From IMG/VR virus record IMGVR_UViG_3300023109_003756, positions 1-31,529 of that record: a stretch of DNA of 31,529 nucleotides, one strand, 5' to 3'. Source of the stretch: a virus. Both the position numbers and the translations under genes were made by a program. Below are positions 15,076-29,697 of the stretch, one piece after another; the stretch's first letter is position 1, and every line of letters starts with the position of its first letter. Under the pieces are notes generated by a model that ran no database searches, had not been told where the DNA came from, and saw only the letters and a program-made list of their open reading frames with translations.

Positions 15076-15906
15076 TTATTCATTCATAACTTTCATTAAT
15101 ATTCTCGCTTGACTCGCGGGAATATCTGAGAAGTCACTCCATTCTTTAACTGAATCGTTTTTATATTTTCCATCTTTCCACCAATCCCTAAGGATAACTC
15201 TAAATTCTTCAAAACTAGAGCAATTAAGTTTTTCTTTAGCAAGGTTTTCAATCATTGAGTGAGGAGTTAGTGATGGAGATATGTTTGAGTTTTTATTTAA
15301 TGAAGCCGGATTATTAGATTTATCTATTTCATCATCTCCGACGATATGTACATTTAAAAAGTTTCTGACGCAGCGAACAAATGCTCGATTGCAAGCTATA
15401 GTTTCTAGGAATTTAGTGGCAAAACTACTTGTGTTATCAAGAGTGGCATTAGCCATATCTTGAAACTCTACAGATTGACCACCTGTTTCATAATTTGGAA
15501 GAAATTTAATCCTGCAAATTACTGCTACATGATCAGGTTGACATTTAACTACCTCGTAAGATACATCTCTAAAACCTCTTAGTTTAGCTAATTCTTTAAT
15601 TCCGCTTAATTTTATAAGAAGTTGGTGGTCTCCTAGGCCGTCAATTGTTCTCGGCATATCTTTTTTCCTTAAATCAAACCATGATCTATTTGGAAATAAA
15701 TGCTCGTCTTTAATCATTGATCTCCAGTTTACCGAGCCATCTACATCAAAAGCGTAATCTACTTCTTTAAGTAAACCGAATTCATCCCTATTAAATTTTC
15801 CGGGACCATTTTTATATTTGTCCGGAATATTTTTAGATACTTTGGCTGAGCTTGAGTTTGAGTTGTATGTTACTGAATTTTCTGAAGTTGATGATGATAT
15901 TGACAT
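15076..15906 (-). CDS. Putative ssDNA-annealing/recombination-type phage protein
   Basis: A 276-residue protein that I do not recognise with certainty. The N-terminus (1-40) is Ser/Asn-rich and looks disordered. A compact domain spans about 45-200, containing GDHQLLIKLSGIKELAKLRGF and CNRAFVRCVRNFLNVHIVGDDEI. The second motif, with regularly spaced Arg and Ala in a helix followed by a short loop and acidic residues, resembles the A..RA..RA.R..L pattern of single-strand annealing and Rad52-like phage proteins. A second small domain (about 220-276: CSSFEEFRVILRDWW, ..DIPASQARILMKVMNE) follows a linker. It is the last gene of the - strand operon, 5 nt after the split GT9 gene, with no Shine-Dalgarno site. 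A DNA-repair role is a guess from motif shape. Confidence 0.35.
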   Translation of the reverse strand: MSISSSTSENSVTYNSNSSSAKVSKNIPDKYKNGPGKFNRDEFGLLKEVDYAFDVDGSVNWRSMIKDEHLFPNRSWFDLRKKDMPRTIDGLGDHQLLIKLSGIKELAKLRGFRDVSYEVVKCQPDHVAVICRIKFLPNYETGGQSVEFQDMANATLDNTSSFATKFLETIACNRAFVRCVRNFLNVHIVGDDEIDKSNNPASLNKNSNISPSLTPHSMIENLAKEKLNCSSFEEFRVILRDWWKDGKYKNDSVKEWSDFSDIPASQARILMKVMNE

Positions 15907-15911
15907 GATAA

Positions 15912-17066
15912 TTATTCGTTATAAATTCTTAATATGCTCAAGTCTTCCCAGAATTCAGGGCAATCTATAACTTCATTATGGTTTCCGCTTTTATCGTGTT
16001 TCCACGCAGCTTTGCTATTATAGATTTTGCTTCCTGATACGATCTTCATTGAACATTTATATCGAGTATTATCGCATAAATCTGATTGATTGTCAAGGTC
16101 TTTTTTTGTTTTTGGTGTTATTAAATTAATATCCCAATCAAAAAATTTCATTCTTAATTCTGTTATATTTTCTTTATCTTTTGAAAGTAAATTAAATTTT
16201 ATTCCTAATCTCTCTAATAATCTAAAATAATTAGGCTTATCTGATTCTGAAACATAGTAATTGATTGCATTAATATTTGATTTAATTAATTTTAAGTACT
16301 TTGACCCCATTGGTTTATTTAGAAAGATATTACATTTTCTGTCATATGCCCATCTTGTGATGTTAGATTCATCAAAGCATTCGTGCCCCCAGATATTCAC
16401 TGGCTCGCCAGGAGCGAACGATTTAGGCATAATATGATTTGGTACAACAGAAATCGAAGGGGTGTGATAATCCTTTCCAGTGTGAAGTGTTTTTATTTTA
16501 TGTAAATCATGATCTATATTTAATAAATCTAATACTGCGCAAGCAATAGTTTCAGGCTTTATGAGATTAACCATTTTAGGAGACTCTTTATTAGAGAAAG
16601 AAGGCTTCAATCCGTTTCTATCGGATTCAATTAAGATTTGATTATCTTTATTGCCCCAATAAGGACCGCAACATTCTTTGTACAAAACGCTATATAGGCA
16701 AACTATTTTCTTGTCAAATCCAGAGGCGACATGAGTACTAAAGGAGTCATTCCCAAAATGAAGTAGGGAGTTTTGTATTAAATAAGCAGTCTGTCTAATT
16801 GAGGTTGTTCCATGATAATGAATGCATCCAGAAAGACTTGGGTCTTCTTTTCCGCCAATCTGCATGATTTTAATGTTATGTTTTTCTAAATATGGAGATA
16901 TTAAACTAACTACATCAGGAAAGTAATCATAGTTTTTTGCCGCCATTCCACTGCTCGCATGAAGTGTAATATATTTATCATCAGAAACAGGAAAGAATAG
17001 TGGTTCGATATGGGGCTTATCTATTTTTACCCCACAAGAAAGTGCGTATTGTTCTATTAGGTGCAT
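15912..17066 (-). CDS. GT9-type glycosyltransferase, C-terminal half plus unknown domain
   Basis: Holds the second Rossmann domain of a heptosyltransferase-like (GT9) enzyme: ITLHASSGMAAKNYDYFP (about 33-50), IMQIGG (about 67-72), and LLHFGNDSFSTHVASGFDKKIVCLYS (about 101-126), where GT9 normally has the conserved D..GLMH.A..LG.P sugar-nucleotide site. The first Rossmann domain is missing from this chain. It lies at the end of the upstream gene (17057-18961), which overlaps by 10 nt in the -1 frame. MHLIEQYALSCGV is the connecting helix usually found between the two GT9 domains. Residues about 195-384 are an extra domain I cannot assign. Translation probably restarts at ATG within ATGCACCTAA. 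The two polypeptides presumably assemble into one enzyme; otherwise this is a broken gene. Confidence 0.7.
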   Translation of the reverse strand: MHLIEQYALSCGVKIDKPHIEPLFFPVSDDKYITLHASSGMAAKNYDYFPDVVSLISPYLEKHNIKIMQIGGKEDPSLSGCIHYHGTTSIRQTAYLIQNSLLHFGNDSFSTHVASGFDKKIVCLYSVLYKECCGPYWGNKDNQILIESDRNGLKPSFSNKESPKMVNLIKPETIACAVLDLLNIDHDLHKIKTLHTGKDYHTPSISVVPNHIMPKSFAPGEPVNIWGHECFDESNITRWAYDRKCNIFLNKPMGSKYLKLIKSNINAINYYVSESDKPNYFRLLERLGIKFNLLSKDKENITELRMKFFDWDINLITPKTKKDLDNQSDLCDNTRYKCSMKIVSGSKIYNSKAAWKHDKSGNHNEVIDCPEFWEDLSILRIYNE

Positions 17067-18961
17067 ATATCAAATTGTATTTTATCTTTTCCGTTGTGCA
17101 TATAATTTAACATTCTTTGGGTTCCTATGAAAGGAAGAAATGCTACTTCAAAAAAACCTTTATGGTTTCCGTAGCCTTCCATTGTGGTTAAATTATCTAA
17201 ATTTTTATTATACTGAATCACTCTATGAATATAAGGGTTTCCTTCTAAAATTTCAAAATATTCTGGTTTTGTTGCGAAATATATATTATAGTTGGGATAA
17301 GTCTCTTTTATATTTTTTAATAATGAAGTGCATAGATATATGTCCCCTATGCTTTGAGGCATTGAAATTAATAACCTTTTTCCTTCATCATCTTTATCTA
17401 GAAGATCTGCGAAGTCTACTTTTTTATTTTTTTCGTTTTCTTGAGTAGCTACTTGCTTAAAGTATTTTAAAACATCTTCTCTAGTCATGTCCTCAGAAAG
17501 TCTTTTGGTCCAATGCTTATGACCTTCATCGGATTCATGAATATTCATATCTAATATATTCTTGTATATATTTTTTAGCCACTCTGATTGATCTTCAATG
17601 CGGGGAGGATTATATTCGGGGTTCTTGGGCTTGACTTTAAAATCAAAGTCCCAATTAGTGAACTCCATATTATCTAGTATTTTTTCTAATTTTTTTCCTA
17701 CAGATTCTATGCTATAGTTTTCAATAGCGAAATCCCTGGCTTTTTTTCCCCACTCTTTTCTTTTGTTTGCGCTCATCTTGAACACTTTTTTGAGTTGGTA
17801 TGCAATACTGTCTGGACTGGTGCTAGCTTTAATAAATTGAGTTCCAGGTTCCCTATATTCGGTCCAATTGAGCGGAAGGCCTGCAGATTCTTTTGTGCAG
17901 CAATCTTCTCCGCAGCTGTAATTTGTAACTAATGTAATAAGTTCTGTTAGCTTAGCTTCTTGAATTGGAATTTCTTGACCCCCGCTAGTAAATGGATGGC
18001 AATAAACATCCATTGCGTTGTAAATTTGATTTAATTGAGTTTCATTAACTCCTAATTTTGTACTTGTAGTTTTTAGCGTTTTCTTTGAGCCGCAAAAAGG
18101 GCAATCCTCTTCATTGCTAGAAAAATTTGTTATATGAAAATTTTTGCAACTAGAGCAAACATATGTTGTTAGCACTCTTTTCGGGTCAATACCTTTCTCC
18201 TTTATGAGCCTGGGTATATCCCAACCTTCACTCCAGTTTGTATGAAGTAAGAGTTTTGCTGAACATTCAGGGTTTTGTTGGCAAAATATTTTAAATCCCT
18301 CCAAGAGATTCGGAACACTTTTTCTTAATTGATTCCTGAATACAAAACCAATAACAAAATCATTTTCCAAGCCAAAGAAATGTCTTAATTTTTCTCTATC
18401 TTTATCTTCTAGTTTGTAGAAATTTGAAGTATCTAAAGCCCCGTGTAAAGTGTCTACATGGCTATGGCCAAGTTTATTTAAAGCTTTTTGAGCGAAAGAA
18501 GACCAAGTATAGTAATTTTTTATTTTAGGAGCATACTTGACTGCGTCAGGAAGAATAGGCAGACTGTCTAAAGTTGTCCATACCATACAATTAATCTCAT
18601 TCCACCATTTCTTCTCTGTATAACCTGTAAAAGCCCAGATATCTTCTATGCCTATATAGATATCAGGTTTTTCCTCTTCAATAATTTTATCTATAGTATG
18701 CGCTCCGTAACCAGCACTTCTAGCTAGACTAGGATCTTGATTAAGCTTCTTTAGTAAAGCTGGGTTATTTGGTAGAGATCCTTGACATTTCCATGGAAGA
18801 TTCTCTATAGATGGATCCCCCCATCTTATTCCGTTTGAAAATTCTACTATATCATATTTACCTGTTTTTTGTAAATATAGTAATATATTCTTTGTATGTT
18901 TGCCAAATCCAGTATAAGCTTTGCAATGATTACTATGTATTAGAACTTTCTTTTTTTTCAT
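17057..18961 (-). CDS. GT4 glycosyltransferase with zinc ribbon, DUF4214-like segment and GT9 N-terminal half
   Basis: Multi-domain sugar transferase of 634 residues. Residues 1-440 are a GT-B/GT4 enzyme: HSNHCKAYTGFGKHTKN at the acceptor side and HPFTSGGQEIPIQEAKLTE near 322-340 as the nucleotide-sugar E..E region. A four-cysteine zinc ribbon is inserted in the C-terminal lobe (C269, C272, C287, C290). Residues about 460-505 (WLKNIYKNIL....GHKHWTKRL..DMTREDVLKYF) resemble DUF4214. Residues about 529-634 are the first Rossmann domain of a GT9 transferase (RLLISMPQSIGDIYLCTSLL, YFEILEGNPYIHRVI). The GT9 partner domain is the next gene. The start ATG overlaps the upstream stop by one base (TAATG). 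Donor and acceptor sugars cannot be told from sequence. Confidence 0.75.
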   Translation of the reverse strand: MKKKKVLIHSNHCKAYTGFGKHTKNILLYLQKTGKYDIVEFSNGIRWGDPSIENLPWKCQGSLPNNPALLKKLNQDPSLARSAGYGAHTIDKIIEEEKPDIYIGIEDIWAFTGYTEKKWWNEINCMVWTTLDSLPILPDAVKYAPKIKNYYTWSSFAQKALNKLGHSHVDTLHGALDTSNFYKLEDKDREKLRHFFGLENDFVIGFVFRNQLRKSVPNLLEGFKIFCQQNPECSAKLLLHTNWSEGWDIPRLIKEKGIDPKRVLTTYVCSSCKNFHITNFSSNEEDCPFCGSKKTLKTTSTKLGVNETQLNQIYNAMDVYCHPFTSGGQEIPIQEAKLTELITLVTNYSCGEDCCTKESAGLPLNWTEYREPGTQFIKASTSPDSIAYQLKKVFKMSANKRKEWGKKARDFAIENYSIESVGKKLEKILDNMEFTNWDFDFKVKPKNPEYNPPRIEDQSEWLKNIYKNILDMNIHESDEGHKHWTKRLSEDMTREDVLKYFKQVATQENEKNKKVDFADLLDKDDEGKRLLISMPQSIGDIYLCTSLLKNIKETYPNYNIYFATKPEYFEILEGNPYIHRVIQYNKNLDNLTTMEGYGNHKGFFEVAFLPFIGTQRMLNYMHNGKDKIQFDICT

Positions 18962-19521
18962 TAAAAAGGAGCTTCTTCACTAACTGTAGTATCTTCGCTT
19001 TTTGATTTGTATTCTTGAAGCCTCTTGGATTCTTCTAGGTGTCTATGTTCGTATAATGATTGAAGAAAATATTTAAAAAACTCTGTTAAGTTTTCCACCT
19101 CTCCAGGTTCCAATGGTATTCTAAATACTTGACTGCCGTTTCTTGTCAAGTTGATTCCAAATGCAGGCACAACAACCCACTCTTCTTTATCGCCATTTTT
19201 TACTTTTGTTTTCTTGTCCCACGGCGCGAACTTAATTGATGTTTTATTTTCTTCATACGAGTGAAAGGATGAAAATTCATTTCTATTCTTAAATGAACTG
19301 ATGATTCCACCGATTTCAAACTCTGTAAATTTTAAATTGATTTTTTTATCTGGATCATTTGCATTACCAGAAAAACTTGCAACCTTCTTTTTGTCATCCC
19401 AGCTAAATTGTTGAATTGCGTTAACATAAATAACTGGTTCTTTCTTCTTGTTTTTTCCGATTGAGAAATTAAAGGCACAACCTGTGTTTTTACTGTTTGG
19501 TTTATATAGAGATATTGACAT
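18961..19521 (-). CDS. Putative second ssDNA-binding protein with SSB-like C-terminal tip
   Basis: A 186-residue protein with a beta-rich core (residues 1-145: SLYKPNSKNTGCAFNFSIG, YVNAIQQFSWDD, INLKFTEFEIGGIISSF), a helix (LTEFFKYFLQSLYEHRHLEE) and an acidic tail ending EEAPF. The tail resembles the DDDIPF-type tip by which SSB proteins recruit partners, and the true SSB in this window ends DIPF. The core could be a Whirly/PC4-like or OB-type nucleic-acid-binding fold; I cannot decide which. It follows the largest gap in the operon (55 nt), which has a promoter-like palindrome, so it may have its own transcription start. No Shine-Dalgarno site is present. Confidence 0.4.
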   Translation of the reverse strand: MSISLYKPNSKNTGCAFNFSIGKNKKKEPVIYVNAIQQFSWDDKKKVASFSGNANDPDKKINLKFTEFEIGGIISSFKNRNEFSSFHSYEENKTSIKFAPWDKKTKVKNGDKEEWVVVPAFGINLTRNGSQVFRIPLEPGEVENLTEFFKYFLQSLYEHRHLEESKRLQEYKSKSEDTTVSEEAPF

Positions 19522-19531
19522 GTCGATTACT

Positions 19532-19551
19532 GTTTATTAATATTTATAAAC
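19532..19551. promoter_or_regulatory. Near-perfect 20-bp palindrome containing a T4-late-like -10 (TATAAATA, - strand)
   Basis: Read on the - strand this is GTTTATAAATATTAATAAAC, a palindrome with one mismatched pair. It contains TATAAATA (19548-19541), the T4 late promoter consensus. The predicted transcript would start some 12 bases before the ATG at 19521. It lies in the only sizeable gap of the - strand operon. Such octamers arise often in AT-rich DNA, so support comes mainly from placement and symmetry. Confidence 0.35.
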
Positions 19552-19576
19552 GATAATAACAATATTTTTTATTTTA

Positions 19577-20452
19577 TCAACTATCTATTAAATCTATGTG
19601 ATGACACCATCCTTCTTCATTATAAAGCGCGTCATATTTTCTATAACTAGATGTCCATATGTGTTTTGGTAAATCTTTTATTCTTATAATGTCAAAATGT
19701 TTTTTCATTAAATCTGCAGATTTAGAATTATCCATTATCTCTCGATTACCTTCTTGTTGATTAAAGAACGTTTCTATAACTGCTTTGCAAAATAATTGTT
19801 CTGGGAATTTAACTAAATTTTTCTTTGAACATAGATATAAAGCTTTTGAGAAAACACTTAACATGCGATCTCTCTGACCAGATATAATATGATCAGAGGG
19901 ATGAAACTTATTCTCTCTATCAAATCTAAAATAAATATTAGAAGTTATAATTTTGTGAGAATTGTATAATTTAGTTTTTTCATTATAAGTGTCTCTATTT
20001 CTTCTTAACATAAAAATTAATGGATCTAAGATAGGAAAGCTTTCATCTGATCTTAATTTTATACAAAAGTAACCTTTGCATTTTCTTAATCCACTGAGAG
20101 TTGTATAGTGTTGGTAAATCCATGGAGCTTGACTTCCAGATTTTTTATGAAATTGAGGTAGAGAATGATAATTGTTAATTACAATTTTTATTTTGTCTTT
20201 ATATTCATCAAGTAAAGAAAGATCGTCTGTATTCCAGCAGCTTACTACAACCTCTCCGTACTTTAAGTAGTAAGGGATCGTGTTGATTGACCTTTTATTT
20301 AGGGGGCCTTGAATTATGATGGATACTGAATTTTCGAGAGATTCAACTCTCGGTAATAATGAATTGTAAAATTTGTATAAAAACCTATTTTCTGAACTTA
20401 TATGAAGATCATGATTTAGGTAATTATGAAAAAGATTATCTATTTCATTCAT
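19577..20452 (-). CDS. WavE-like lipopolysaccharide synthesis glycosyltransferase
   Basis: Predicted glycosyltransferase of the WavE family, which acts in outer-core LPS synthesis in Vibrio. Visible features: SVSIIIQGPLNKRSINT near the N-terminus, VVVSCWNTDD (WavE iiStW-like), KIVINNYHSL, then GYFCIKLRSDESF, the family's K.R.D metal/nucleotide segment. I set the start at ATG 20452, which overlaps the stop of the GDPD gene as ATGA. The longer frame to 20482 begins with TTG and would overlap further. It sits after a nucleotidyltransferase and a phosphodiesterase, consistent with transfer of a phosphorylated or unusual sugar to a surface glycan. That substrate is unknown. Confidence 0.7.
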   Translation of the reverse strand: MNEIDNLFHNYLNHDLHISSENRFLYKFYNSLLPRVESLENSVSIIIQGPLNKRSINTIPYYLKYGEVVVSCWNTDDLSLLDEYKDKIKIVINNYHSLPQFHKKSGSQAPWIYQHYTTLSGLRKCKGYFCIKLRSDESFPILDPLIFMLRRNRDTYNEKTKLYNSHKIITSNIYFRFDRENKFHPSDHIISGQRDRMLSVFSKALYLCSKKNLVKFPEQLFCKAVIETFFNQQEGNREIMDNSKSADLMKKHFDIIRIKDLPKHIWTSSYRKYDALYNEEGWCHHIDLIDS

Positions 20453-20871
20453 TTCAAGAAATCTGAACAGACCCCGAAGCAAATTGGGCCCGCATAATTT
20501 CTTGCATCGTCTAAAACTACTACGCTTTTATTGGTAACGCGTTTACCTGGGTAGGTCCATATAAAATTTTTTGAAGTTAAAGTGAAGTCGTCGGATTCAT
20601 GCCAAAAATAATTTAAAACTTTAAACTCAGAAAGGACATCTAATGCTTCTAAATTTTTACAATGAATCCAAAGCTTCCTAAAATTATTCATTAGGAAACT
20701 AAAGTTTATTTCATATTGAGGTTCATCATGCCCTAAATATATTTTATTATCACACCAAACATCGATCTCAACATCATAACCTAAGTTTAAGGCTTCTTGT
20801 ACGTAATCGGGGTGATTCTCTTTGTCTTTTTGTGGACCAGTGATGTTACCTCTATGAGCTATGAATATCAT
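20449..20871 (-). CDS. Small GDPD-like (PI-PLC fold) phosphodiesterase
   Basis: A 140-residue glycerophosphodiester phosphodiesterase-like protein. Catalytic-type residues are in the expected order: H6-R7 (IAHRGN), E35 and D37 (DVEIDVW), H48-D49 (YLGHDEP). The rest (LWIHCKNLEAL, YFWHESDDFTLTSKNFIWTYPGK) matches a compact subfamily known to me from polysaccharide loci and viruses. It is much shorter than housekeeping GDPDs (about 240-350 aa), so part of the barrel is reduced. It may hydrolyse a glycerophospho- or sugar-phosphodiester bond on a glycan. It overlaps the HAD::NTase gene by 20 nt and the WavE gene by 4 nt, implying coordinated translation. Confidence 0.7.
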   Translation of the reverse strand: MIFIAHRGNITGPQKDKENHPDYVQEALNLGYDVEIDVWCDNKIYLGHDEPQYEINFSFLMNNFRKLWIHCKNLEALDVLSEFKVLNYFWHESDDFTLTSKNFIWTYPGKRVTNKSVVVLDDARNYAGPICFGVCSDFLK

Positions 20872-22228
20872 GTTTTAAAAAAGTTTCTAGATCTTCTGGA
20901 GTTCCTAGTCCCCACATTTTTTCGATATGGAATGTTTTCACTCGCGCACCATCCAGAATAGCTTCATTGTAAACGGGGCATACATAGAATTCATTATTAA
21001 CTCTAATGTTTTTTTCAATCATTCTTTCTGCGCAATTTACATAATCAGAACCCTTTTTCCAGAAATAAATTCCAACAGTTGCATGTTCGCTTATAGGTTT
21101 TTTCTCTGCAACCTCTATGACAAACCCATCATCGTTCAGTTTTGCATAACTCCATTTGGGGTGAGTAGAATGAAAAGTCAAAATTGATGCATCTATATCA
21201 TCTGCCATAGATGAATACATAAATTGATTGCTATCCCATTGAACATATTGGTCAGAGTTCGCTAAAACTAAAGGTTCATTGTTGTTTATAAATTCTTTCG
21301 CCAAGAGAGTTGTGCATGCTGCACCTTCAGTAATTCCTTCTACTTGAACTATCTCACAGTTTGGAGAAATTAAATTTAAGGTATGCTTTAGAGAATACTT
21401 TTCATAATGCTCTTTTTGGACAATAAAAATATGTCTTGCGTCTATGTTTAAATTTTCAACAACTCTTTGTATCATAGGTTTTCCGTCAACATCAATTAAG
21501 GGTTTTGGGAAAGTATAACCTGCCTGCTCGAATCTGGAGCCTGCTCCAGCCATGGGAATTAGTACGTTCATTTTACCTCCTTGCCATTTGGGTGAAATTG
21601 ATGATGTTTTTTCTGCATTTAGTATAGTATTATTAATCTTGGAAAATGTCAAGTCATTAGAATCTATAACGGCACATAAATGAGCCCCACTTCTTGTAGC
21701 TCCTTTTCTCCCGATGTGAGAATCTTCAATAATAACAGTTTCATCGGGGTTAACTTGGGCCTTGATCATGCACTGCATGTAAATTTCTGCATTAGGTTTT
21801 GGTAAACTAACATCTTCGTTTGAGTATAAAAAATCTATATATTCAAAGAAACCTTTTCTTATTAACATTAATTTTGATGTCTCCCTAATTGAGTTTGTCG
21901 CACAAGCAATGGTATATCCTTGGTTTTTTAATTTTTTAATAATATCCCTTATGCGGTGGTCTATTTTATATGCATCTATTACCTCTAATGTTTTCTGTTG
22001 TTTTAGTTGCCAAATTTTATTGTGATATTCTTTGGGTAAATCTTTTTCCTCTGTTAGTTTTTTTAATTTTTGCGTAGTGGTTAAAGCATCATATTTACAA
22101 AGATGTTCTTCTTTGCTAATTACATATTGTTCGCCGATTTCTGCTAACGCTTTATTTAAAGCTATATAATGAAGATCGCGAGATTCAACTAGCACTCCAT
22201 CTAAATCAAATATAATTAATTTAATCAT
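20852..22228 (-). CDS. HAD phosphatase fused to sugar-1-phosphate nucleotidyltransferase
   Basis: Bifunctional sugar-nucleotide enzyme. Residues 1-205 are a HAD hydrolase: FDLDGVLVES (nucleophile D8, D10), ACATNS (motif II), SLPKPNAEIY (motif III Lys) and VIIEDSHIGRKGA (motif IV), close to the beta-phosphoglucomutase/phosphoglycolate phosphatase branch. Residues 220-458 are a nucleotidyltransferase: NVLIPMAGAGSRF...GYTFPKPLIDVDGKPMI (NTP loop and Lys) and VLANSDQYV (metal-binding Asp). Phosphatase plus guanylyl- or uridylyl-transferase resembles the late steps of activated-heptose pathways, but the sugar is unknown. Met220 has a perfect Shine-Dalgarno site inside the gene (21575-21582), so a free nucleotidyltransferase of 239 residues may also be made. 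It overlaps the upstream gene by 8 nt. Confidence 0.82.
   Translation of the reverse strand: MIKLIIFDLDGVLVESRDLHYIALNKALAEIGEQYVISKEEHLCKYDALTTTQKLKKLTEEKDLPKEYHNKIWQLKQQKTLEVIDAYKIDHRIRDIIKKLKNQGYTIACATNSIRETSKLMLIRKGFFEYIDFLYSNEDVSLPKPNAEIYMQCMIKAQVNPDETVIIEDSHIGRKGATRSGAHLCAVIDSNDLTFSKINNTILNAEKTSSISPKWQGGKMNVLIPMAGAGSRFEQAGYTFPKPLIDVDGKPMIQRVVENLNIDARHIFIVQKEHYEKYSLKHTLNLISPNCEIVQVEGITEGAACTTLLAKEFINNNEPLVLANSDQYVQWDSNQFMYSSMADDIDASILTFHSTHPKWSYAKLNDDGFVIEVAEKKPISEHATVGIYFWKKGSDYVNCAERMIEKNIRVNNEFYVCPVYNEAILDGARVKTFHIEKMWGLGTPEDLETFLKHDIHSS
21575..21582 (-). promoter_or_regulatory. Internal Shine-Dalgarno AAGGAGGT for a nested nucleotidyltransferase start
   Basis: On the - strand AAGGAGGT is followed by AAA and then ATG at 21571-21569, which is Met220 of the HAD::NTase gene and the exact first residue of the nucleotidyltransferase domain (MNVLIPMAGAGSRF). 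The spacing is rather short (3-4 nt). It is the only full-length SD match I found at a start codon in this window, where most starts have none. Confidence 0.6.
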
Positions 22229-22916
22229 TTATATAAGTTAAGTATTTTCTCCAATCATCATGTATTCTAATATCATATTTTCCTTGATGATCCATAAATA
22301 AATGACTTTCTACTTTATTATAAAGCGCCCAATATAAAAGTAAACTATTAAAGCCTATAAATTTTTTGCTTTGACTAATAACTTCAAGTGTTTCTTTAAG
22401 CGAAGATTTACCACTAAAACTTTTACCAAATGGGGGATTGGTTTCTTCTATTCCAACCCAACAAACTTTACTTTTGTCAAAATTAAAATTGTTTAGATAT
22501 TGTAGTATTGGTCGTTTATTGATATGGCGTTTCTTGCCTTCGTTTTTTATTCCTCCATTTACTTGTATGCATAAGTCATATTTTTTCTCGACTGTATTGT
22601 TTATATAAGAGTTTTTAAAACCTTCATCAATGCACGGCTGCCAGTGGAAATCTCTAGGCGGGCATTTGATTTGACCATGGGCGCACACATTAAAACATTT
22701 ATCGAATTTACTATGATTTGATTGCCACCAATATCTTAAATTGGGGGTATGTATTAATTGATGATTTATATTAAATATATTTAGTAATTCGCCGCACATC
22801 AATAATTTTTCTTTAGTTGATTCTATGTGAAAATATTTATAATTATATTTTTGTTCTAATAATTTTAATATTATAATTAAGCAGTCACCAACTCCTCCAT
22901 AACCTAGGAAATTCAT
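22221..22916 (-). CDS. GT9-like glycosyltransferase
   Basis: A 231-residue GT-B protein related to ADP-heptose:LPS heptosyltransferases. The N-terminus MNFLGYGGVGDCLIIILKLLEQ gives the G.GD helix start of GT9 enzymes. The second lobe shows CIQVNGGIKNEGKKR, VCWVGIEE and SKKFIGFNSLLLYWALYNKVESHLF, the position of the conserved D/N.....HLA segment. It is shorter than typical GT9 members (about 320-350 aa), so the lobes are reduced. It starts 3 nt after the methyltransferase gene stop and overlaps the HAD::NTase start by 8 nt. The substrate is not identifiable. Confidence 0.6.
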   Translation of the reverse strand: MNFLGYGGVGDCLIIILKLLEQKYNYKYFHIESTKEKLLMCGELLNIFNINHQLIHTPNLRYWWQSNHSKFDKCFNVCAHGQIKCPPRDFHWQPCIDEGFKNSYINNTVEKKYDLCIQVNGGIKNEGKKRHINKRPILQYLNNFNFDKSKVCWVGIEETNPPFGKSFSGKSSLKETLEVISQSKKFIGFNSLLLYWALYNKVESHLFMDHQGKYDIRIHDDWRKYLTYIND

Positions 22917-22919
22917 TAT

Positions 22920-23537
22920 TTATGGAATGTCGTCTACTCTTATTAAACCTAAGAATTTTTTTTCATATCCTTGCGTGCTTTTGTAACCAAAAAAACGTTT
23001 TTCAAATTTTAGATTATATGGAGATAGGCTAAGGTTGTGCTGGCAGGCATTAGCCTTTTTTGATTTATAGTCTTGTGTTGAGTGATTAAAGCTTGTGACT
23101 ATAAGCCATTTGGTTTTGCTGGAAATTAGTTTTTCGAGAAATGAAAATATGTCTTCGCTTGAAAGATGAAAAAGTACATCTCTACAAATAAATAAATCGC
23201 AATAAGGGATGTTATCGTGACATGCATCTAATTGTTTGAATTTTATATTATTTTTAGTGTTAGTCGTATTTATCTTGTCTAGGCAGGATTCTGATATATC
23301 TATACCCAAGTAATCTCCCGTATAATTTTTTAGAAATTTATGTTGCCATGCGAAATCTCCGCAGATATCAATTATTGATTGTATGTTTTTTGTTGAAATT
23401 ACATCTGAAATAAACTTGGAGTCATGATTTGTGAAAGAATCGCTAGAACCTCTTCCTGATAAAGTGTTTCCATGCTTGCCCCAGAGTTGTTTTTTGTAGA
23501 TTTCTTCAAAATGATTTTTTCTTTCTGTTGTGTCCAT
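22920..23537 (-). CDS. SAM-dependent methyltransferase (class I)
   Basis: A 205-residue methyltransferase. Motif I appears as SIIDICGDFAWQHKFL, an unusual form in which CGDFAW replaces the usual GxGxG, followed by GDYLGIDISESCLDKI (motif II acidic residue) and CDLFICRDVLFHLSSEDI (motif IV region). In glycan loci such enzymes methylate sugar hydroxyls or lipid-linked chain ends; here that is inferred from context. It lies 1 nt after the upstream gene stop. The AGGA at a spacing of 7 nt before ATG is one of the better ribosome sites in the operon. Confidence 0.65.
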   Translation of the reverse strand: MDTTERKNHFEEIYKKQLWGKHGNTLSGRGSSDSFTNHDSKFISDVISTKNIQSIIDICGDFAWQHKFLKNYTGDYLGIDISESCLDKINTTNTKNNIKFKQLDACHDNIPYCDLFICRDVLFHLSSEDIFSFLEKLISSKTKWLIVTSFNHSTQDYKSKKANACQHNLSLSPYNLKFEKRFFGYKSTQGYEKKFLGLIRVDDIP

Positions 23538-23538
23538 T

Positions 23539-24219
23539 TTATATTCCTACCCAATCTTTTTTTAAATATACATATTGTTCTTTGTTTGGAAATAATTCCA
23601 CATATTCTTTGGTTTTGCCTCTTGGTATGTTTTTTGGGTTTGGTTCGATGTGCATTAATATTTTTTTTTCATATTGTAGTGTTATAGGAACCAAGTGTTC
23701 TGTTAAGAAATATTCGTCTGCGCCAAATTCTGACAGGGGGTCTTTATATTGATTGATTAAGTCTTTAATTTTAAAAGGTAGATTGCGACCACCGAAACAA
23801 CCTGCCATATAGTACCTTCTATTTTTTCTGTTCCAGGCGGAGAGTCTATCATGGGCAAGCCATACAAAATGTAATAGATGATCTGTTTTTAACCACTCAT
23901 TGATGGATATAATATCATTCTGTTGTATCTGAAAATCTAAATCTCTGCATACTGCTACATCGCAATCATCTAACGCCAAAAATCTCCAAAAGCAACCCTC
24001 TCTACCTTTACCTTTTGGCATTTTTATACATTCAGTATTATTAATTGACTCGACAGATTTAATTATATTTAAAGGAGCTGTGTCATCAAAATACAATCTG
24101 AATTTCCAATCAGGCATATTCTCTGATACAAATTTGGCGTTTCTTGGTGCGCCTAATGCATATTTGTGATAAGCCGCTAGCCTATTGCCAAATAAACATG
24201 TTGATATTACTTTTTTCAT
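23539..24219 (-). CDS. Probable GT-A glycosyltransferase
   Basis: A 226-residue protein with the pattern of small GT-A-type transferases found in viral and polysaccharide loci. It opens with VISTCLFGNRLAAYHKYALGA and later MPDWKFRLYFDD. CRDLDFQI supplies a D.D metal/nucleotide-sugar motif, and GADEYFLTEHLVP is a plausible catalytic acidic segment. There is no signal peptide or membrane segment, so a cytoplasmic enzyme is likely. Its ATG overlaps the upstream methyltransferase-like gene stop (ATGA-type), and it lies 1 nt before the next gene. Donor and acceptor are unknown. Confidence 0.55.
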   Translation of the reverse strand: MKKVISTCLFGNRLAAYHKYALGAPRNAKFVSENMPDWKFRLYFDDTAPLNIIKSVESINNTECIKMPKGKGREGCFWRFLALDDCDVAVCRDLDFQIQQNDIISINEWLKTDHLLHFVWLAHDRLSAWNRKNRRYYMAGCFGGRNLPFKIKDLINQYKDPLSEFGADEYFLTEHLVPITLQYEKKILMHIEPNPKNIPRGKTKEYVELFPNKEQYVYLKKDWVGI

Positions 24220-24752
24220 TTTTTAGATAAAGCTACCAAACACTGACCTGAATTTATTTCATTTATTATTTTATACTTCTCTAAGACTGACCTGTAATGG
24301 GTTCTACATGGGTGCCAGTCATGAATAAAGACAATACAGTCATTATCTATAAAATCGTACATATACCTAGCGCACTGAGGTCTAGCCCTGCCGTCTATGA
24401 GAATACTTGAGAATGGTTTCCCTATCTTGGATCCTGTTTCGATATATTCTTTATAAGCATAGTACATTTTAGTTGTATATAATTGATCCCATTTTATTGC
24501 GTGTTTTTGATCTGGATCATTAGGTCTAACAACAGGTATGCAATGCATGGTTACGTTTTTAGGCATAATCTTTTGCACGGAATTAGCCCAAGATTCATCT
24601 GATTCAATGCTGTAATACTCTTTTACATAATTAGCGAAGAACATTGTACTTCCTCCGCAGCCATATTCAAGCATTATGTCATCTTTGTTAAGGAAGCTTA
24701 ATATTAAATCAATCTCCTGCCTTGACATCCATGGTTGATTCGGCACATTCAT
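24216..24752 (-). CDS. SAM-methyltransferase-like protein
   Basis: A 178-residue Rossmann protein. IMLEYGCGGSTMFFANYV corresponds to motif I (E-x-G-x-G-x-S-T form), YYSIESDESWANSVQ to motif II and SSILIDGRARPQCARYMYDFI to motif IV. This E.G.GGST subgroup is common in glycan and phage loci and is often annotated as class I SAM methyltransferase or related to FkbM-like proteins. It overlaps both neighbours by 4 nt (ATGA), so translation is tightly coupled. A sugar or phospholipid acceptor is inferred only. Confidence 0.6.
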   Translation of the reverse strand: MNVPNQPWMSRQEIDLILSFLNKDDIMLEYGCGGSTMFFANYVKEYYSIESDESWANSVQKIMPKNVTMHCIPVVRPNDPDQKHAIKWDQLYTTKMYYAYKEYIETGSKIGKPFSSILIDGRARPQCARYMYDFIDNDCIVFIHDWHPCRTHYRSVLEKYKIINEINSGQCLVALSKK

Positions 24753-25651
24753 TTTAAATATTTATTTTTCATATGGGTTTTTATTTCATTGAAAACATCA
24801 TCGTTCCATAGAAATTCTGGTTGAAATTTATTAAATACATCTTGATCAGACCAGCCGGCGCTTTTGAAATTATCTGGGCGACTATGCTCTCCGATTTCGC
24901 CTATATATTCAAAGTTGTTTGTGAAAGTAGATATTTTGATCATACCTCTTGCTGCAAAAGCTGCAGATGTACAAGAATCCTGGCTTGATACTATTTTATT
25001 AGGGTCAGCTCCGATTGATGACATTAAGTTTAAGATTTCTCCATGCGGTCTAAATCTATATTCTTGAGGAAGTAAATTCCAGTAAGCTTCAAGTACGTCA
25101 TATATCCTTTCATAAGAAGATTTTCTCATGGCATATGCCCATAGATGATCCATTAATATTATCTTATCTTTGTTGTTTTCTTGTTCTTGCAATGAAACTT
25201 TATTATCTTGCTCTCCTGTATAATCGATATATGAATATCTGTGAGTTTTTTTTGATCTATGATGCTCTCCAAAACAATTAATCATTGCAATTCTTTCATC
25301 ATCTCTAAATTTATCTATTAAAAAATCAAGTTGTTGTATATAGTGAGGTTGAAGAATGGAGTCATCCTCTATTAAAATTAGGAAATCATTATCTTGAAAA
25401 ACTAATTCCCTTGCATATTTCATAATTTTTGCAACTCCTTGATTGGATTTTGCTATAACCGTTTGGCTATGAGGTATTTTTTCTTTGCATAGATTAAATG
25501 ATTTCTGTACTAATTCTACATCCTCTTGAAACCTTGGCCCATCAATTACGCAGTAGACTTTTCTATCCCAACATTGGGTGGAGATGGAGTCTAATACTCT
25601 CTCGAGATAATGAGGTCTATTGTATGCTGTTAGTACTACTGGTGTTTTCAT
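24749..25651 (-). CDS. GT-A glycosyltransferase (GT2/GT13-like)
   Basis: A 300-residue transferase. The N-terminus TPVVLTAYNRPHYLERVLDSI is the classic GT-A nucleotide-binding start. LILIEDDSILQPHY contains the E-D-D metal motif typical of GT13/GNT-I-like and some GT2 enzymes, and MDHLWAYAMRKSSYERI is the region that follows in that group. The C-terminus (FQPEFLWNDDVFNEIK) is helical. It overlaps the upstream gene by 35 nt and the downstream gene by 4 nt. GT13 enzymes add GlcNAc to mannose in eukaryotes; I do not claim that specificity here. Confidence 0.68.
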   Translation of the reverse strand: MKTPVVLTAYNRPHYLERVLDSISTQCWDRKVYCVIDGPRFQEDVELVQKSFNLCKEKIPHSQTVIAKSNQGVAKIMKYARELVFQDNDFLILIEDDSILQPHYIQQLDFLIDKFRDDERIAMINCFGEHHRSKKTHRYSYIDYTGEQDNKVSLQEQENNKDKIILMDHLWAYAMRKSSYERIYDVLEAYWNLLPQEYRFRPHGEILNLMSSIGADPNKIVSSQDSCTSAAFAARGMIKISTFTNNFEYIGEIGEHSRPDNFKSAGWSDQDVFNKFQPEFLWNDDVFNEIKTHMKNKYLK

Positions 25652-26438
25652 TATAGATAATAGAGGTATGTCCTTGGTTTCTCCACTTTTTTCCGTCTTT
25701 GCATAAAATTGTATTTATGTTTCCGAAAGAATTTGTTCCTGTTAATTGCTTGTATTTGCAGTTTTGTAAGTTAAGACAAATCGTCATAACTGATTCTGGA
25801 ACCTTGATCATGTATTCAGGGTATCCATTTTCCCACATCATATTAATCGCTTGTCTTATAAAAGAAAGGCAGTCAAAATATTTATTCATTTGATCAGGAT
25901 GTCCGATTGCAAACTGATCGTTGATTTGATTTGGTAAAGATTGTTTTTCGTATACAAAGCTAAAACTAAATTCTTTTTTTAATTCTTCTTCATGGTTATA
26001 AATATTATCACTTTCAAATAAAGGTAATCTTATTATTTTATTTTTTATACAATCTTTAATTTCATGTATTTTAATTTGCTCTAATACTTGTATGTCAGGT
26101 CTTAATCTAATGATTAAATCATAATTAAGTTTTTTGTAAGTGATATAGTTGTAATGCATTGTATGGCAAGCTTTTAATCCTGCAAGCATAGGAATTAATC
26201 CTGAATTTGGCTGGCAATCCAATTCCTTTGTTGATCCCATTAGTTTCATTACTTGATTAAAATTTAAAATATGTTGCTTAATTGGCCTGTAGTATTGAGA
26301 GAAATTCTCAAAGTCTTGATCATCCCACGTTGTTGAGAAGATATCTGGCTTAAGCGGGTATATGATATTTTTTGTTATGGACTCTGCGCAATGCTCCCAG
26401 TCACCTAATTTTCCGCAAAAAAGTAATGCCGTTTTCAT
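25617..26438 (-). CDS. Probable glycosyltransferase of polysaccharide-locus type
   Basis: A 273-residue protein. It begins KTALLFCGKLGDWEHCAESI and PDIFSTTWDD, and has LNYDLIIRLRPDIQV in the middle. The last segment (Y/D..IR.RPD) occupies the place of the donor-binding R.D motif in WavE-like and related surface-sugar transferases. NQINDQFAIGHPDQMNKYFDC is also typical of that group. No membrane segment is visible. It starts at an ATG overlapping the stop of the GT9-like gene by 4 nt (ATGA). The assignment is by pattern only. Confidence 0.5.
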   Translation of the reverse strand: MKTALLFCGKLGDWEHCAESITKNIIYPLKPDIFSTTWDDQDFENFSQYYRPIKQHILNFNQVMKLMGSTKELDCQPNSGLIPMLAGLKACHTMHYNYITYKKLNYDLIIRLRPDIQVLEQIKIHEIKDCIKNKIIRLPLFESDNIYNHEEELKKEFSFSFVYEKQSLPNQINDQFAIGHPDQMNKYFDCLSFIRQAINMMWENGYPEYMIKVPESVMTICLNLQNCKYKQLTGTNSFGNINTILCKDGKKWRNQGHTSIIYNENTSSTNSIQ

Positions 26439-27376
26439 TCTGTGATATATTCGGTAATATCTCTCTGTGCTACAAGTTTTTCAATATTGTCTAATAAGTG
26501 TGGGTACAATCTATAGGCAGGATTCCTTAAGCAGTTCTTGAGCATTGTTCCTGCGCTACTGACATCATAATGTAATGGTAGTACGAATCTATCATTTAAT
26601 AGCCACCTGATTAAATATGAATACTGAACAACTCCATATTGACTGCAATATTTAGAGAAAGTGAAAACAGGTTTTCCGTAATGATATGGAATGTATCTAA
26701 TCCCTGAATCTATAGCTAACATGGCCGTGCATTTAGATGCTATATCAAAAATGTCCGCAATTGACTCATTTACAAAATGAAGTTTATCGTTTCCTTCCTT
26801 CATTAATTTATGGTACTTATGTTCAGACTCATTGTTGTACAGGACTATAACCTCAAACTCTTGGGTTATGTTTTTTAACAATTTCGAGATATACCAATCT
26901 TCCATATTTGAATCTGAATTATCCCTTGCATAAAGATGTGCCAAAATGAATTTTTCAGGTAGAACGGAGGAGGAACGGAATTTTTCTCCTTTCGTTTCTG
27001 GTGTTGGGAATATCTGAAAATGCTTAAACCAGTCAAAATCATAATTCATCCAGTCTAGTGAGTCGATATGAAGATCATAAAATTTATCATATGCGCCCTG
27101 CATTAACTTTAGGTCTCCATTTGGCACATTTTTAATTGAACCTCTATAATCTTCTTCTGGGAAATTTGAAGATTTGATTCTAAATTTTTTATGCTTCTTT
27201 TTTTCTATAACGAAAATATCATTAAAATAAGATGGCCACATTAATTTGAGAGTGTCTGACTGAAATGTGTTACCTTCTGTATCTGACCATAGGTCTATTT
27301 TACAACCCGGCCACTGCTCCCTGATTGCAGGGATGAATCGATTAGCTAAAAGGTGATCTCCCAGCCCACCTTCCAT
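26435..27376 (-). CDS. GT9/heptosyltransferase-like glycosyltransferase
   Basis: A 313-residue GT-B protein. MEGGLGDHLLANRFIPAIREQWP carries the G.GD turn and first helix, FILAHLYARDNS opens the second lobe, and ASKCTAMLAIDSGIRYIPYHYGKPVFTF is the conserved D-S/T-G....yHyGkP region. It is a better GT9-family match than the 22221-22916 gene. The ATG at 27376 falls inside what should be the first strand: the eight in-frame codons before it (VIKISVRM) look like normal GT9 sequence and are bounded by TAG. The true start may therefore be a rare ATA or ATT codon coupled to the preceding stop, or the strand may be shortened. It is the first enzyme gene of the operon after the regulator. Confidence 0.68.
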   Translation of the reverse strand: MEGGLGDHLLANRFIPAIREQWPGCKIDLWSDTEGNTFQSDTLKLMWPSYFNDIFVIEKKKHKKFRIKSSNFPEEDYRGSIKNVPNGDLKLMQGAYDKFYDLHIDSLDWMNYDFDWFKHFQIFPTPETKGEKFRSSSVLPEKFILAHLYARDNSDSNMEDWYISKLLKNITQEFEVIVLYNNESEHKYHKLMKEGNDKLHFVNESIADIFDIASKCTAMLAIDSGIRYIPYHYGKPVFTFSKYCSQYGVVQYSYLIRWLLNDRFVLPLHYDVSSAGTMLKNCLRNPAYRLYPHLLDNIEKLVAQRDITEYITE

Positions 27377-27390
27377 TCTTACTGAAATTT

Positions 27391-27705
27391 TTATGACCTA
27401 ACCCCCCGTACTAACATGTTCTCTTGATCAACAACAAGCGTTGTTAATTGTGTCAGTGTTTTATTGGACGTCTTCTTTCTCTTGATATGCTTGGCTTGAG
27501 ACAACCTTCCTAGGCTCGCAGAGATTTTACCGTAAGACATTCCTCCTAAATCCTTTCCTATTCTGTTATTCGAAAAGAAAATAGGTTTTCCGTGAGAAGC
27601 TTTGGATACGAGATAGTTGTAAACTACAAGATCATTGCCAATTAATTTTCCGTTAATTATGTCTTGCTGGATTGCAAGAGGTATCTGTGTGAATTTTTTC
27701 ATCAT
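27391..27705 (-). CDS. Winged-helix DNA-binding protein, first gene of the glycan operon
   Basis: Small basic protein, 104 residues from Met at 27705. FTQIPLAI......LVVYNYLVSKASHGKPIFFSNNRIGKDLGGMSYGKISASLGRLSQAKHIKRKKTS has the alternating helices of a winged helix-turn-helix with a recognition helix around YGKISASLGRL and a basic wing. This shape occurs in phage regulators and replication initiators. The longer frame to ATG 27720 is unlikely because that codon lies inside the promoter spacer. The promoter places the transcript start at 27705, so the start codon would be at the mRNA 5' end. Being the first gene of the operon and next to two paired inverted repeats, it may autoregulate the operon; this is inference. 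Confidence 0.6.
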   Translation of the reverse strand: MMKKFTQIPLAIQQDIINGKLIGNDLVVYNYLVSKASHGKPIFFSNNRIGKDLGGMSYGKISASLGRLSQAKHIKRKKTSNKTLTQLTTLVVDQENMLVRGVRS

Positions 27706-27710
27706 TAACG

Positions 27711-27739
27711 ATAATATCATTAACTTTCAAAATAGTCAA
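27711..27739 (-). promoter_or_regulatory. Sigma-70-type promoter for the - strand glycan operon
   Basis: On the - strand, TTGACT (27739-27734), a 17-bp spacer and TATTAT (27716-27711). Each hexamer has one mismatch to consensus. The expected start is about 7 nt downstream, near 27704, and ATG occupies 27705-27703, so the mRNA is predicted to be leaderless. Confidence 0.65.
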
Positions 27740-27743
27740 GTAG

Positions 27744-27761
27744 AATTCAAAAAATTGAATT
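27744..27761. promoter_or_regulatory. Inverted repeat, candidate operator 1
   Basis: AATTCAA-AAAA-TTGAATT, a perfect 7-bp inverted repeat with a 4-bp spacer, lying five bases upstream of the - strand -35. Its core CAA-N4-TTG is shared with the repeat at 27769-27782. It is suited to a dimeric regulator. Confidence 0.45.
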
Positions 27762-27768
27762 AGCGACA

Positions 27769-27782
27769 TACAAATAATTGTA
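27769..27782. promoter_or_regulatory. Inverted repeat, candidate operator 2
   Basis: TACAA-ATAA-TTGTA, a perfect 5-bp inverted repeat with a 4-bp spacer. It has the same CAA-N4-TTG core and spacing as operator 1, and the centres are 23 bp apart, about two helical turns. Confidence 0.4.
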
Positions 27783-27828
27783 CGATGTTAATAATATAGG
27801 TATACATTGAATAATTAATTTTATTATA

Positions 27829-27836
27829 TATAAATA
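27829..27836 (+). promoter_or_regulatory. TATAAATA, T4-late-like -10 element
   Basis: Exact match to the T4 late promoter octamer in the divergent control region, upstream of the + strand operon that encodes a phage sigma factor. In AT-rich DNA this may be chance; position is the only support. Confidence 0.25.
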
Positions 27837-27842
27837 TAAGAA

Positions 27843-27871
27843 TTGACAAATTGATGAAATGATGGTATAGT
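27843..27871 (+). promoter_or_regulatory. Strong sigma-70-type promoter for the early + strand operon
   Basis: TTGACA (27843-27848), a 17-bp spacer and TATAGT (27866-27871): a perfect -35, optimal spacing and one -10 mismatch. The start codon ATG is at 27878, six bases after the -10, which is where transcription should begin, so a leaderless mRNA is predicted. Confidence 0.75.
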
Positions 27872-27877
27872 AGTTGA

Positions 27878-28174
27878 ATGAAATTTATAGATCTAAGTGA
27901 AATAAAGTGCTTTATAATAAAGTGTTCTGACTGGTCGGTAATCATAGAGGCTGAGAATGAGACCGAAGCGTGTACCGAGGCTCTAGGTAAAATGCTAGAG
28001 AAATACAATAAGAACCTGAAGTTATCTTCTGTAATGATATCTCAAGAATTAAGAGCAGATGTTATGGATGAAGACTATGACGAACTAGTATCATATCACT
28101 CCGTATCTAGGATGCTGGCAAACGCAGGTATGCATGACCTATCTGCAAATATCAAATATGTATTTGGATCCTAA
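27878..28174 (+). CDS. Conserved small phage protein of unknown function
   Basis: A 98-residue acidic soluble protein and the first gene of the early operon. The N-terminal half (KFIDLSEIKCFIIKCSDWSVIIEAENETEACTEAL.KMLEKY) reads as a beta strand, a short acidic turn and a helix, a pattern I associate with small conserved proteins of aquatic phages whose role is unknown. There are no zinc-binding, nucleotide or membrane motifs. Its start codon is predicted to be at the very 5' end of the transcript. The next gene begins one base after its stop (TAA-A-ATG). Confidence 0.65.
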   Translation: MKFIDLSEIKCFIIKCSDWSVIIEAENETEACTEALGKMLEKYNKNLKLSSVMISQELRADVMDEDYDELVSYHSVSRMLANAGMHDLSANIKYVFGS

Positions 28175-28175
28175 A

Positions 28176-28724
28176 ATGAAAGTAATAGGTATTAGTGGGT
28201 TAGCTAGATGCGGTAAAGATAGTTTCTATCAGATATCAAAATCTATTCTAGAAGAAAAAGGAATACAATCAACAAGGTTTGCGTTCGCAGATTGCCTTAA
28301 GGAAGAGTGCGATCAAATATTGAAAGAAAACATAGGTATTTCTGCGTTCACGGAAAACTCTGAAGAAAAAAAGATAATAAGACCATTACTTGTTACTTAC
28401 GGAACTCATATAAGACGCAAGTTAAACGAGAACTGCTGGATAGAGAAGATAGAAGAAAGCGTTTTAAGTAAAGTTTCAGAAGGAAATGTAACCTTTATTA
28501 CTGATGTCAGGTTCGAAAATGAGATAGATTGGGTTCATTCTTTAAACGGGAAATCAGTGCATATTACGAGAGAAGGAATAATCCCGCCGAATAAAGATGA
28601 AGCTAAGAATAACCCTATCTTGAAAAATAAATCAACACAATTAGTTGATTGGCCTAATTTTGATTCAATAAAAGAATCAGATGTATCGAATATCGTTAAT
28701 AAAGTATTACAATCAATTTTATGA
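28176..28724 (+). CDS. Deoxynucleoside monophosphate kinase (T4 gp1-like)
   Basis: Predicted dNMP kinase that phosphorylates dNMPs, including modified ones in some phages, toward dNTPs for replication. KVIGISGLARCGKDSFYQI holds the P-loop (G..RCGKDS). YGTHIRRKLNENCWIEKI is the LID/NMP-binding region, and FITDVRFENEIDWV is the D-R-F-x-N-E signature of the phage dNMP kinase family. I use ATG 28176 because the frame to 28134 overlaps the previous gene by 41 nt, while 28176 begins one base after its stop and just before the first strand. The next gene overlaps by ATGA. Length 182 aa is a little below T4 gp1 (241 aa). Confidence 0.82.
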   Translation: MKVIGISGLARCGKDSFYQISKSILEEKGIQSTRFAFADCLKEECDQILKENIGISAFTENSEEKKIIRPLLVTYGTHIRRKLNENCWIEKIEESVLSKVSEGNVTFITDVRFENEIDWVHSLNGKSVHITREGIIPPNKDEAKNNPILKNKSTQLVDWPNFDSIKESDVSNIVNKVLQSIL

Positions 28725-29317
28725 ACCAAGACACTACAGATTTAACGCTTGTAGAAAACCTACAAAAAGATCAAGACGTAGAGGATAGTTTAAAAGAACT
28801 AGTCGAAAGACATAGCGGAATTTACCTAGATATGGTAAACTCTTATGCTAGCCCAAATAATCCATATATCGACTACAATGAATTAATAAAAGACAAAGAA
28901 TATAAAATATACCACACAGCAATCAAGTTTGACAAAACAAAAGGCGCAAAATTTAGCACGTACTTAGGTAATGAAACTAAATGGATGTGCCTTAATATCT
29001 ACAATAGAAACAAGAGAAGACCTGTATGGCATAGTGAGTATATAGAAAATATGAGCAAGGATAATGAGCTAGAATGTGACACAATCGCAGAAAGCATCAA
29101 GCAAGATCTCTTCAATAAAATATTAAACGTAATAGAAGATCATCCCGACAAAAGAGTTGAAAAAATATTTAAAATGAGATACATTGAAGGAAATAAAAAT
29201 AAAGTTATGTCATGGAAAAAAATAGGAGATAAAATGAACTTAAGCATACAAGGATGCATAAACATCCATAACTCAGCAGTAGAATCATTCAAGGAAACTT
29301 TATCAGAAGAATTATGA
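28721..29317 (+). CDS. Phage sigma-70-family sigma factor (gp55-like)
   Basis: Predicted RNA polymerase sigma factor that redirects host polymerase to phage promoters. Residues about 65-95 (YHTAIKFDKTKGAKFSTYLGNETKWMCLNIYNRNKR) match region 2: F....G..FSTY and a helix with W and basic residues for -10 recognition. Residues about 140-195 (RVEKIFKMRYIEG..MSWKKIGDKMNLSIQGCINIHNSAVE) match region 4, a helix-turn-helix. Region 3 is missing and the protein is short (198 aa), as in T4 gp55, the late-transcription sigma that reads TATAAATA. Its start overlaps the kinase stop by ATGA. Which promoters it serves is inference. Confidence 0.75.
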   Translation: MNQDTTDLTLVENLQKDQDVEDSLKELVERHSGIYLDMVNSYASPNNPYIDYNELIKDKEYKIYHTAIKFDKTKGAKFSTYLGNETKWMCLNIYNRNKRRPVWHSEYIENMSKDNELECDTIAESIKQDLFNKILNVIEDHPDKRVEKIFKMRYIEGNKNKVMSWKKIGDKMNLSIQGCINIHNSAVESFKETLSEEL

Positions 29318-29697
29318 ACAAATATATAGGATTAGGGAATTTAACAAAAGACCCGCTTTTTAAGAAAATAAGCAATGATAAAAATGTATGCGAATTTTCG
29401 ATAGCCATTAATAACAAAGCAAATAATTCAGTATTCTATATTGATATTGAAACTTGGGGTAATGTAGCAGAAAACTGTAAAAGATTTCTTTCTAAAGGTA
29501 GAAAAGTATTAGTCGAAGGAAGATTAATGACTAATAGCTGGCAAAGCAAAACGGGTGAAAGTAGAAGTAAAATATTCTGTAGGGCGGACTTCGTAAGCTT
29601 TCTAGATAAAACAGAGCCATTATCTCAAGAAAAAGTTGCAGAACAGAAAGCTAGAGAGATAATAGAGGAAGACGAATTCGCAGATATTCCATTTTAA
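29314..29697 (+). CDS. ssb: Single-stranded DNA-binding protein
   Basis: Bacterial-type SSB with one OB fold. NKYIGLGNLTKDPLFKKI is the family opening, followed by FSIAINNK, YIDIETWGNVAENCKRFLSKGRKVLVEGRLMTNSWQSKTGE, the typical W and G..V.VEG.L...W segments. The tail is acidic and ends EEDEFADIPF, the tip that binds partner proteins. At 127 aa it is slightly shorter than host SSBs. It overlaps the sigma gene by ATGA and is probably used in phage replication and repair. Confidence 0.92.
   Translation: MNKYIGLGNLTKDPLFKKISNDKNVCEFSIAINNKANNSVFYIDIETWGNVAENCKRFLSKGRKVLVEGRLMTNSWQSKTGESRSKIFCRADFVSFLDKTEPLSQEKVAEQKAREIIEEDEFADIPF

Follow-up and report, generated by a model that had tools for sequence, protein, structure and literature searches.

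A divergent gene pair of an uncultured large phage in which both operons are predicted to begin as leaderless mRNAs

The DNA analyzed here (IMG/VR record IMGVR_UViG_3300023109_003756; 31,529 nucleotides, referred to as the window) comes from an uncultured aquatic phage, of which it is a 31.5-kb fragment, and carries two operons that diverge from a shared intergenic region. The rightward operon (+ strand) opens with a conserved 98-aa protein of unknown function (27878–28174), predicted to be leaderless, which matched no named family in profile searches. It is followed by a deoxynucleoside monophosphate kinase (28176–28724; phrog_139, 5e-28; Pfam DNMK), a sigma-70-family-like factor with region 2 and region 4 motifs (28721–29317), and a single-strand DNA-binding protein (29314–29697; Pfam SSB, 1.5e-22). 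The first gene of the leftward operon (- strand, 27391–27702) encodes a 103-aa winged-helix protein beginning MKKFTQIPL, and is predicted to be leaderless or to carry a leader of at most 3 nt. The AlphaFold2 model of this protein is a winged helix (pLDDT 80), which Foldseek aligns weakly with winged helices of the CodY/MarR type (no E-value better than about 3e-3). In profile comparisons, it falls in phrog_22534, which is weakly DnaD-like, matches phrog_186 and phrog_8102 weakly, and bears a very weak likeness to DnaD-like and replication-initiation families; a Pfam search returned no match. Autoregulation of its own promoter is the likeliest role for the 103-aa protein, with replication initiation as a live alternative. 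Between this regulator and an annealing-like protein (15076–15906) lies a long run of - strand genes (15912–27376), whose translations read like glycosyltransferases, nucleotidyltransferases, and methyltransferases; the run looks like glycan or surface-modification cargo.

Each operon is preceded by its own promoter, found both in the sequence and by a promoter scan. The rightward promoter consists of a -35 hexamer TTGACA (27843–27848) and a -10 hexamer TATAGT (27866–27871), the latter extended by a TG at 27863–27864. The leftward promoter consists of TTGACT (27739–27734) and TATTAT (27716–27711), also with an extended -10 (TG). An earlier note on this DNA had described near-consensus sigma-70 promoters with 17-bp spacers on both sides, and direct reading bears this out: both spacers are 17 nt, and the hexamers score 11/12 against the consensus for the rightward promoter and 10/12 for the leftward one. 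The same note placed the start codons 5–6 bases past the -10 and the transcription start at the A of the ATG, which stands in full for the + strand and in part for the - strand. On the + strand, the 6-nt gap AGTTGA (27872–27877) separates the -10 from ATG 27878, and, if -7 is assigned to the final T of the -10, the A of this ATG is exactly +1. The gap contains an in-frame TGA abutting the ATG, so that a protein start further upstream is impossible in the window. On the - strand, the -10 is followed by CGTTA and ATG 27705 at 5 nt, with a second in-frame ATG at 27702, 8 nt past the -10. The start common to the relatives is 27702, not 27705; the gap between the -10 and this conserved start (27703–27710) holds the first ATG (27705–27703) and is unconserved in sequence. 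The 7-nt rule puts the leftward +1 at 27704, and, because ATG 27702 is the conserved start, the predicted leader on this strand is 0–3 nt.

The intergenic region also contains two operator-like palindromes. O1 (AATTCAAAAAATTGAATT, 27744–27761; 1.35 bits/column) lies 4 bp upstream of the leftward -35, and O2 (27767–27784; 1.49 bits/column) has a TACAA-ATAA-TTGTA core. Their centers are 23 bp apart and fall at about -49 and -72 relative to the leftward start; the rightward start is over 100 bp away. The strict O1–O2 tandem pattern has one match in the window and one in a 184-kb sister contig, both at the divergent-pair locus; in other contigs, divergent forms of the palindromes fall outside this strict pattern. 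Between O2 and the rightward -35 is a conserved GTTAAT element with an A/T-rich stretch (27785–27842), which may act as an UP-like or unwinding element.

To place this arrangement in its lineage, IMG/VR was scanned with the leftward 103-aa protein, yielding 30 relatives with 65–85% identity and, together with the window, 31 loci. The divergent gene pair and both promoters are kept in all 30 relatives. TTGAC is present in the leftward -35 at 31/31 loci, TTGAC followed by A or T in the rightward -35 at 31/31, and the 17-bp spacer in both promoters at 31/31. The distance from promoter to start codon is likewise held. On the + side, the -10-to-start gap is 6 nt at 21 loci, 7 nt at eight, and 8 nt at one (6–8 nt at 30/31), the exception being locus L029 with 16 nt; on the - side, it is 6–10 nt at 31/31, although at locus L028 the start would be TTG. 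In an alignment of 21 of the 31 loci, representing 21 lineages, the -35 hexamers carry 1.7–1.9 bits/column (rightward 1.9) and the -10 hexamers about 1.4, and the + strand ATG is also highly conserved. The spacers carry about 0.65–0.67 bits/column and the gap between the -10 and the ATG just 0.36–0.38. Thus, the length of the gap is kept while its sequence is free, as predicted under selection on the position of the start. The earlier note had named conserved N-terminal extensions as an observation that would count against it; no extension upstream of either start is shared among the relatives, and stop codons break the frame at scattered short distances.

The same geometry recurs well beyond this locus. 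We scanned 708 kb, comprising the window and six large relatives (seven contigs), which are related and share homologous promoters, so that the counts are not independent; among 157 TTGACN-17-TANNNT sites, an ATG stands at a gap of 6–7 nt in 72, compared to 6.4 expected. The peak is sharp, with 48 ATGs at gap 6 and 24 at gap 7 versus about three per position elsewhere. GTG and TTG, with three occurrences each, are not enriched, as expected under leaderless translation. With ORF starts called mechanically by a simple ORF caller, an ORF of at least 40 aa begins at 66/72 of these ATGs, versus 58/165 of other downstream ATGs. A pyrimidine occupies -1 in 59/72 (82%), versus 65/165 for other downstream ATGs, which is expected if +1 is the A of the ATG. 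The leaderless type accounts for 71 of the 106 such promoters located outside ORFs. The 184-kb contig by itself shows the peak (18/45 17-bp-spacer sites at gap 6–7), and the promoter-to-ATG pattern is present in all 27 records inspected (the window and 26 relatives), with a maximum of 26 in one record. When k-mers were counted by position, in an unbiased way, around the 753 ORF starts of the seven contigs, TTGAC fell exactly at -35 from the ATG 56 times, versus a mean of 2.5 per position. Within the window, the leaderless layout is shown by the divergent pair alone. A third match (21652–21616, - strand) was rejected: it lies inside the coding frame 20852–22228, out of frame with the ORF, and recurs because the coding sequence itself is conserved. 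Some promoters of the group are clearly leadered, for example ahead of rIIA. The rIIA-type gene (G022:90264, G016:32246, G020:5669) has a conserved A-rich leader lacking a Shine–Dalgarno (SD) sequence, unlike its neighbors.

The k-mer count brought out a second motif, GTGTA, found 40 times at -14 and 17 times at -15, versus 2.35 per position (753 ORF starts). This class precedes many virion-type or structural genes, as well as others, and is common to homologous genes across contigs; it occurs 14–15 nt before the ATG in contigs G016, G022, G012, G020, G014, and G002 (loci L038–L072). Its spacing suggests a second, putative class of leaderless promoters. A candidate reader of the GTGTA promoters is the phage's own diverged sigma-like factor (28721–29317), encoded by the third gene of the rightward operon. 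Profile matches link this protein to SigA, FliA, and RpoD chains in the PDB (best 4e-4); the best of these span region 2, and the C-terminal part is matched weakly by FliA, giving homology to both region 2 and region 4, with further matches to phrog_36 and phrog_351. In the 20 representative relatives inspected, it lies at the equivalent position, and its motifs are conserved in 20 homologues.

In all seven contigs, SD cores are at or below the background of internal ATGs. The same scan finds SD cores in 26–49% of starts versus a 3–9% background in phages λ, T4, P-SSM2, and HTVC008M (λ, 37% versus 9%), and these four phages have almost none of the TTGAC or GTGTA register. The expectation that both operons could be translated without ribosome-binding sites holds for the two genes of the pair and, on average, for the phage group, where SD is not enriched.

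Close isolates are lacking for this lineage. Neither the regulator nor the 98-aa protein has a match in INPHARED, and the terminase and DnaB are about 22–26% identical to those of known phages. The single GTDB match (L073; RFXU01000199.1) is a 3.4-kb piece of a phage of this group, binned in a Flavobacteriaceae MAG; across the 2.4 Mb of this MAG, the motif is near background, except for one contig with three matches; thus, the binning of this fragment does not settle the host. Positions 1–90 of the fragment duplicate the sequence at about 560–650, suggesting a misassembly or a repeat. Two relatives encode phage tmRNA genes (Rfam RF00023; L041:6721–7082, 154 bits; L051:8119–8510, 140 bits) whose unusual tags, AKNINSVESFSQEGLALAA and GKNKNRVVAFSPKAEQLALAA, could help name the host.

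We consider it highly probable that both operons of this divergent pair begin as leaderless mRNAs and that the phage group is normally organized in this way, a reading that builds on the observed sequence, its conservation, the register, the specificity for ATG, and the absence of SD. On each side, RNA polymerase would begin the transcript with the A that opens the ATG of the first gene, or no more than about 3 nt away, and host ribosomes, for example as 70S particles, would load on the AUG at the 5' end. Binding of 70S to a 5'-terminal AUG is regarded as the main loading route of leaderless mRNAs (PMC9031893), and non-AUG codons are much weaker on leaderless mRNAs in E. coli (PMC9031893). The many sigma-70-type promoters of the group whose -10 lies six or seven bases ahead of an ATG would work alike, as might the GTGTA motif, which stands in a similar register before other, often structural, genes. 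Much of the protein synthesis of the phage group is hence probably initiated on mRNAs that lack a leader. The neighboring winged-helix protein probably binds O1 and O2, next to the leftward -35, and would thereby regulate its own promoter; the identity of the binding protein is a guess. Expression may fall early in infection, given that sigma-70-like promoters precede genes for a regulator, a dNMP kinase, a sigma-like factor, and an SSB. A broader proposal, which we regard as evenly balanced, is that a whole lineage of large aquatic phages has abandoned SD-led initiation in favor of two promoter classes, host sigma-70-type promoters and GTGTA promoters read by a phage sigma factor, both placed so as to yield mRNAs starting at the AUG; genes further downstream would then rely on coupling or another SD-independent route for their translation.

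Among the alternatives, the one that survives best, though we think it rather unlikely, sees in the region chiefly an origin of replication or a genetic switch, to which the promoter geometry would be secondary. The conserved, iteron-like tandem palindromes adjoining an A/T-rich stretch fit this idea, as does the weak similarity of the winged-helix protein to DnaD and replication initiators (phrog_186, phrog_8102). However, the cumulative GC skew has no turning point at the divergent-pair site in two large contigs, and such a function would in any case be compatible with leaderless transcription. It is improbable, to a greater degree, that the promoters are real but the translated RNAs either derive from promoters further upstream or start a few bases sooner and so carry short leaders lacking SD, with the closeness of the ATGs reflecting compact intergenic regions. 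RNA polymerase can start 6–9 nt past the -10, some promoters of the group have A-rich SD-less leaders, such as that of rIIA, and the 16-nt gap of L029 would suit a leader. Yet, compactness predicts neither the sharp peak at 6–7 nt (72 versus 6.4) nor the pyrimidine at -1, and no other conserved near-consensus promoter pair was found between the two promoters.

CAT is a normal sigma-70 initiator, and an ATG could thus follow the -10 as part of a favored transcription initiator rather than as a start codon. Across IMG/VR, the matches listed also include abundant cases of CATC at gap 6 behind a consensus extended -10, which indicates that part of the CATG signal outside the group is transcriptional. 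Since this CATC control is plentiful, and CATG and CATC cannot be ranked among the matches listed, we do not claim leaderlessness virome-wide. Within the group, on the other hand, ATG at gap 6–7 (72) far exceeds ATA (14), ATC (3), and ATT (3), nearly all of these ATGs open ORFs of at least 40 aa, and those of the pair begin conserved proteins. This specificity rules out initiator preference as the full cause, and we give the explanation very little credence. Lastly, chance placing of promoter-like AT-rich sequence by start codons is refuted: although promoter-like matches are no commoner than in shuffled DNA (51 in 11.5 kb versus 58.8 expected, the DNA being AT-rich), so that the case rests on comparison, the arrangement is conserved at 31/31 loci, and a reversed-pattern control gave five matches in total across the 27 records, compared to at least one true match per record and up to 26. 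The earlier note had judged two such cases facing away from each other unlikely by chance, and conservation in 30 relatives, together with the genome-wide recurrence of the register, places the pair beyond it.

Leaderless phage mRNAs are usually seen as oddities of a few regulators. If the preferred reading of leaderless operons is correct, a lineage with many promoters, of two motif classes, in register with the ATG would be a natural system for studying SD-free ribosome loading by a virus. It would also be a warning for gene callers that lean on SD motifs, and transcription starts would become predictable straight from start codons in uncultured phages.

The λ cI mRNA transcribed from PRM is a natural leaderless mRNA of a phage regulator. 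It is, however, the product of a single gene, the genome being otherwise SD-led, whereas the layout described here is group-wide. The present locus also differs from a λ-type CI/Cro immunity switch in its proteins, the leftward one being a winged helix and the rightward 98-aa one matching no named family. The nearest parallel is the divergent cI/cro pair of phage PY54, in which both transcripts begin at the AUG, as shown by RACE (PMC4488713); a divergent leaderless pair as such thus has precedent. Both systems have divergent phage regulatory promoters with operators between them and a UP-like A/T stretch (PMC4488713), but PY54 is a temperate λ-like phage with a CI/Cro switch, while neither protein of the present pair is related to CI/Cro and the layout is genome-wide. 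The AR9 transcriptome study remarks that transcripts of phages are often leaderless but gives AR9's own leaders as 26–491 nt (PMC5312081). A limited search of the open-access literature, which is not proof of absence, found no description of a phage that is leaderless genome-wide. The Cellulophaga phages phi14:2 and phi38:1, SD-less phages of Bacteroidota, likewise show no SD enrichment, yet, unlike this group, lack the register of TTGAC at -35 or GTGTA at -14. In bacteria, leaderless (TA-led) genes are recognized by a TANNNT box some 12 bp ahead of the start codon (Zheng et al. 2011, PMC3160421). The pair has this box, with its first T at -12 on the + strand and at -14 relative to 27702, or -11 relative to 27705, on the - strand, and the box is held in the relatives. 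As in TA-led genes, there is no SD at the pair and no SD enrichment group-wide. The strong preference for AUG expected of leaderless mRNAs is seen as well, ATG outnumbering GTG and TTG at gap 6–7, with the leftward start of L028 as an exception. TA-led genes were described in cellular genomes, whereas here the signature belongs to a phage group and is joined by strong -35 boxes and a second motif class.
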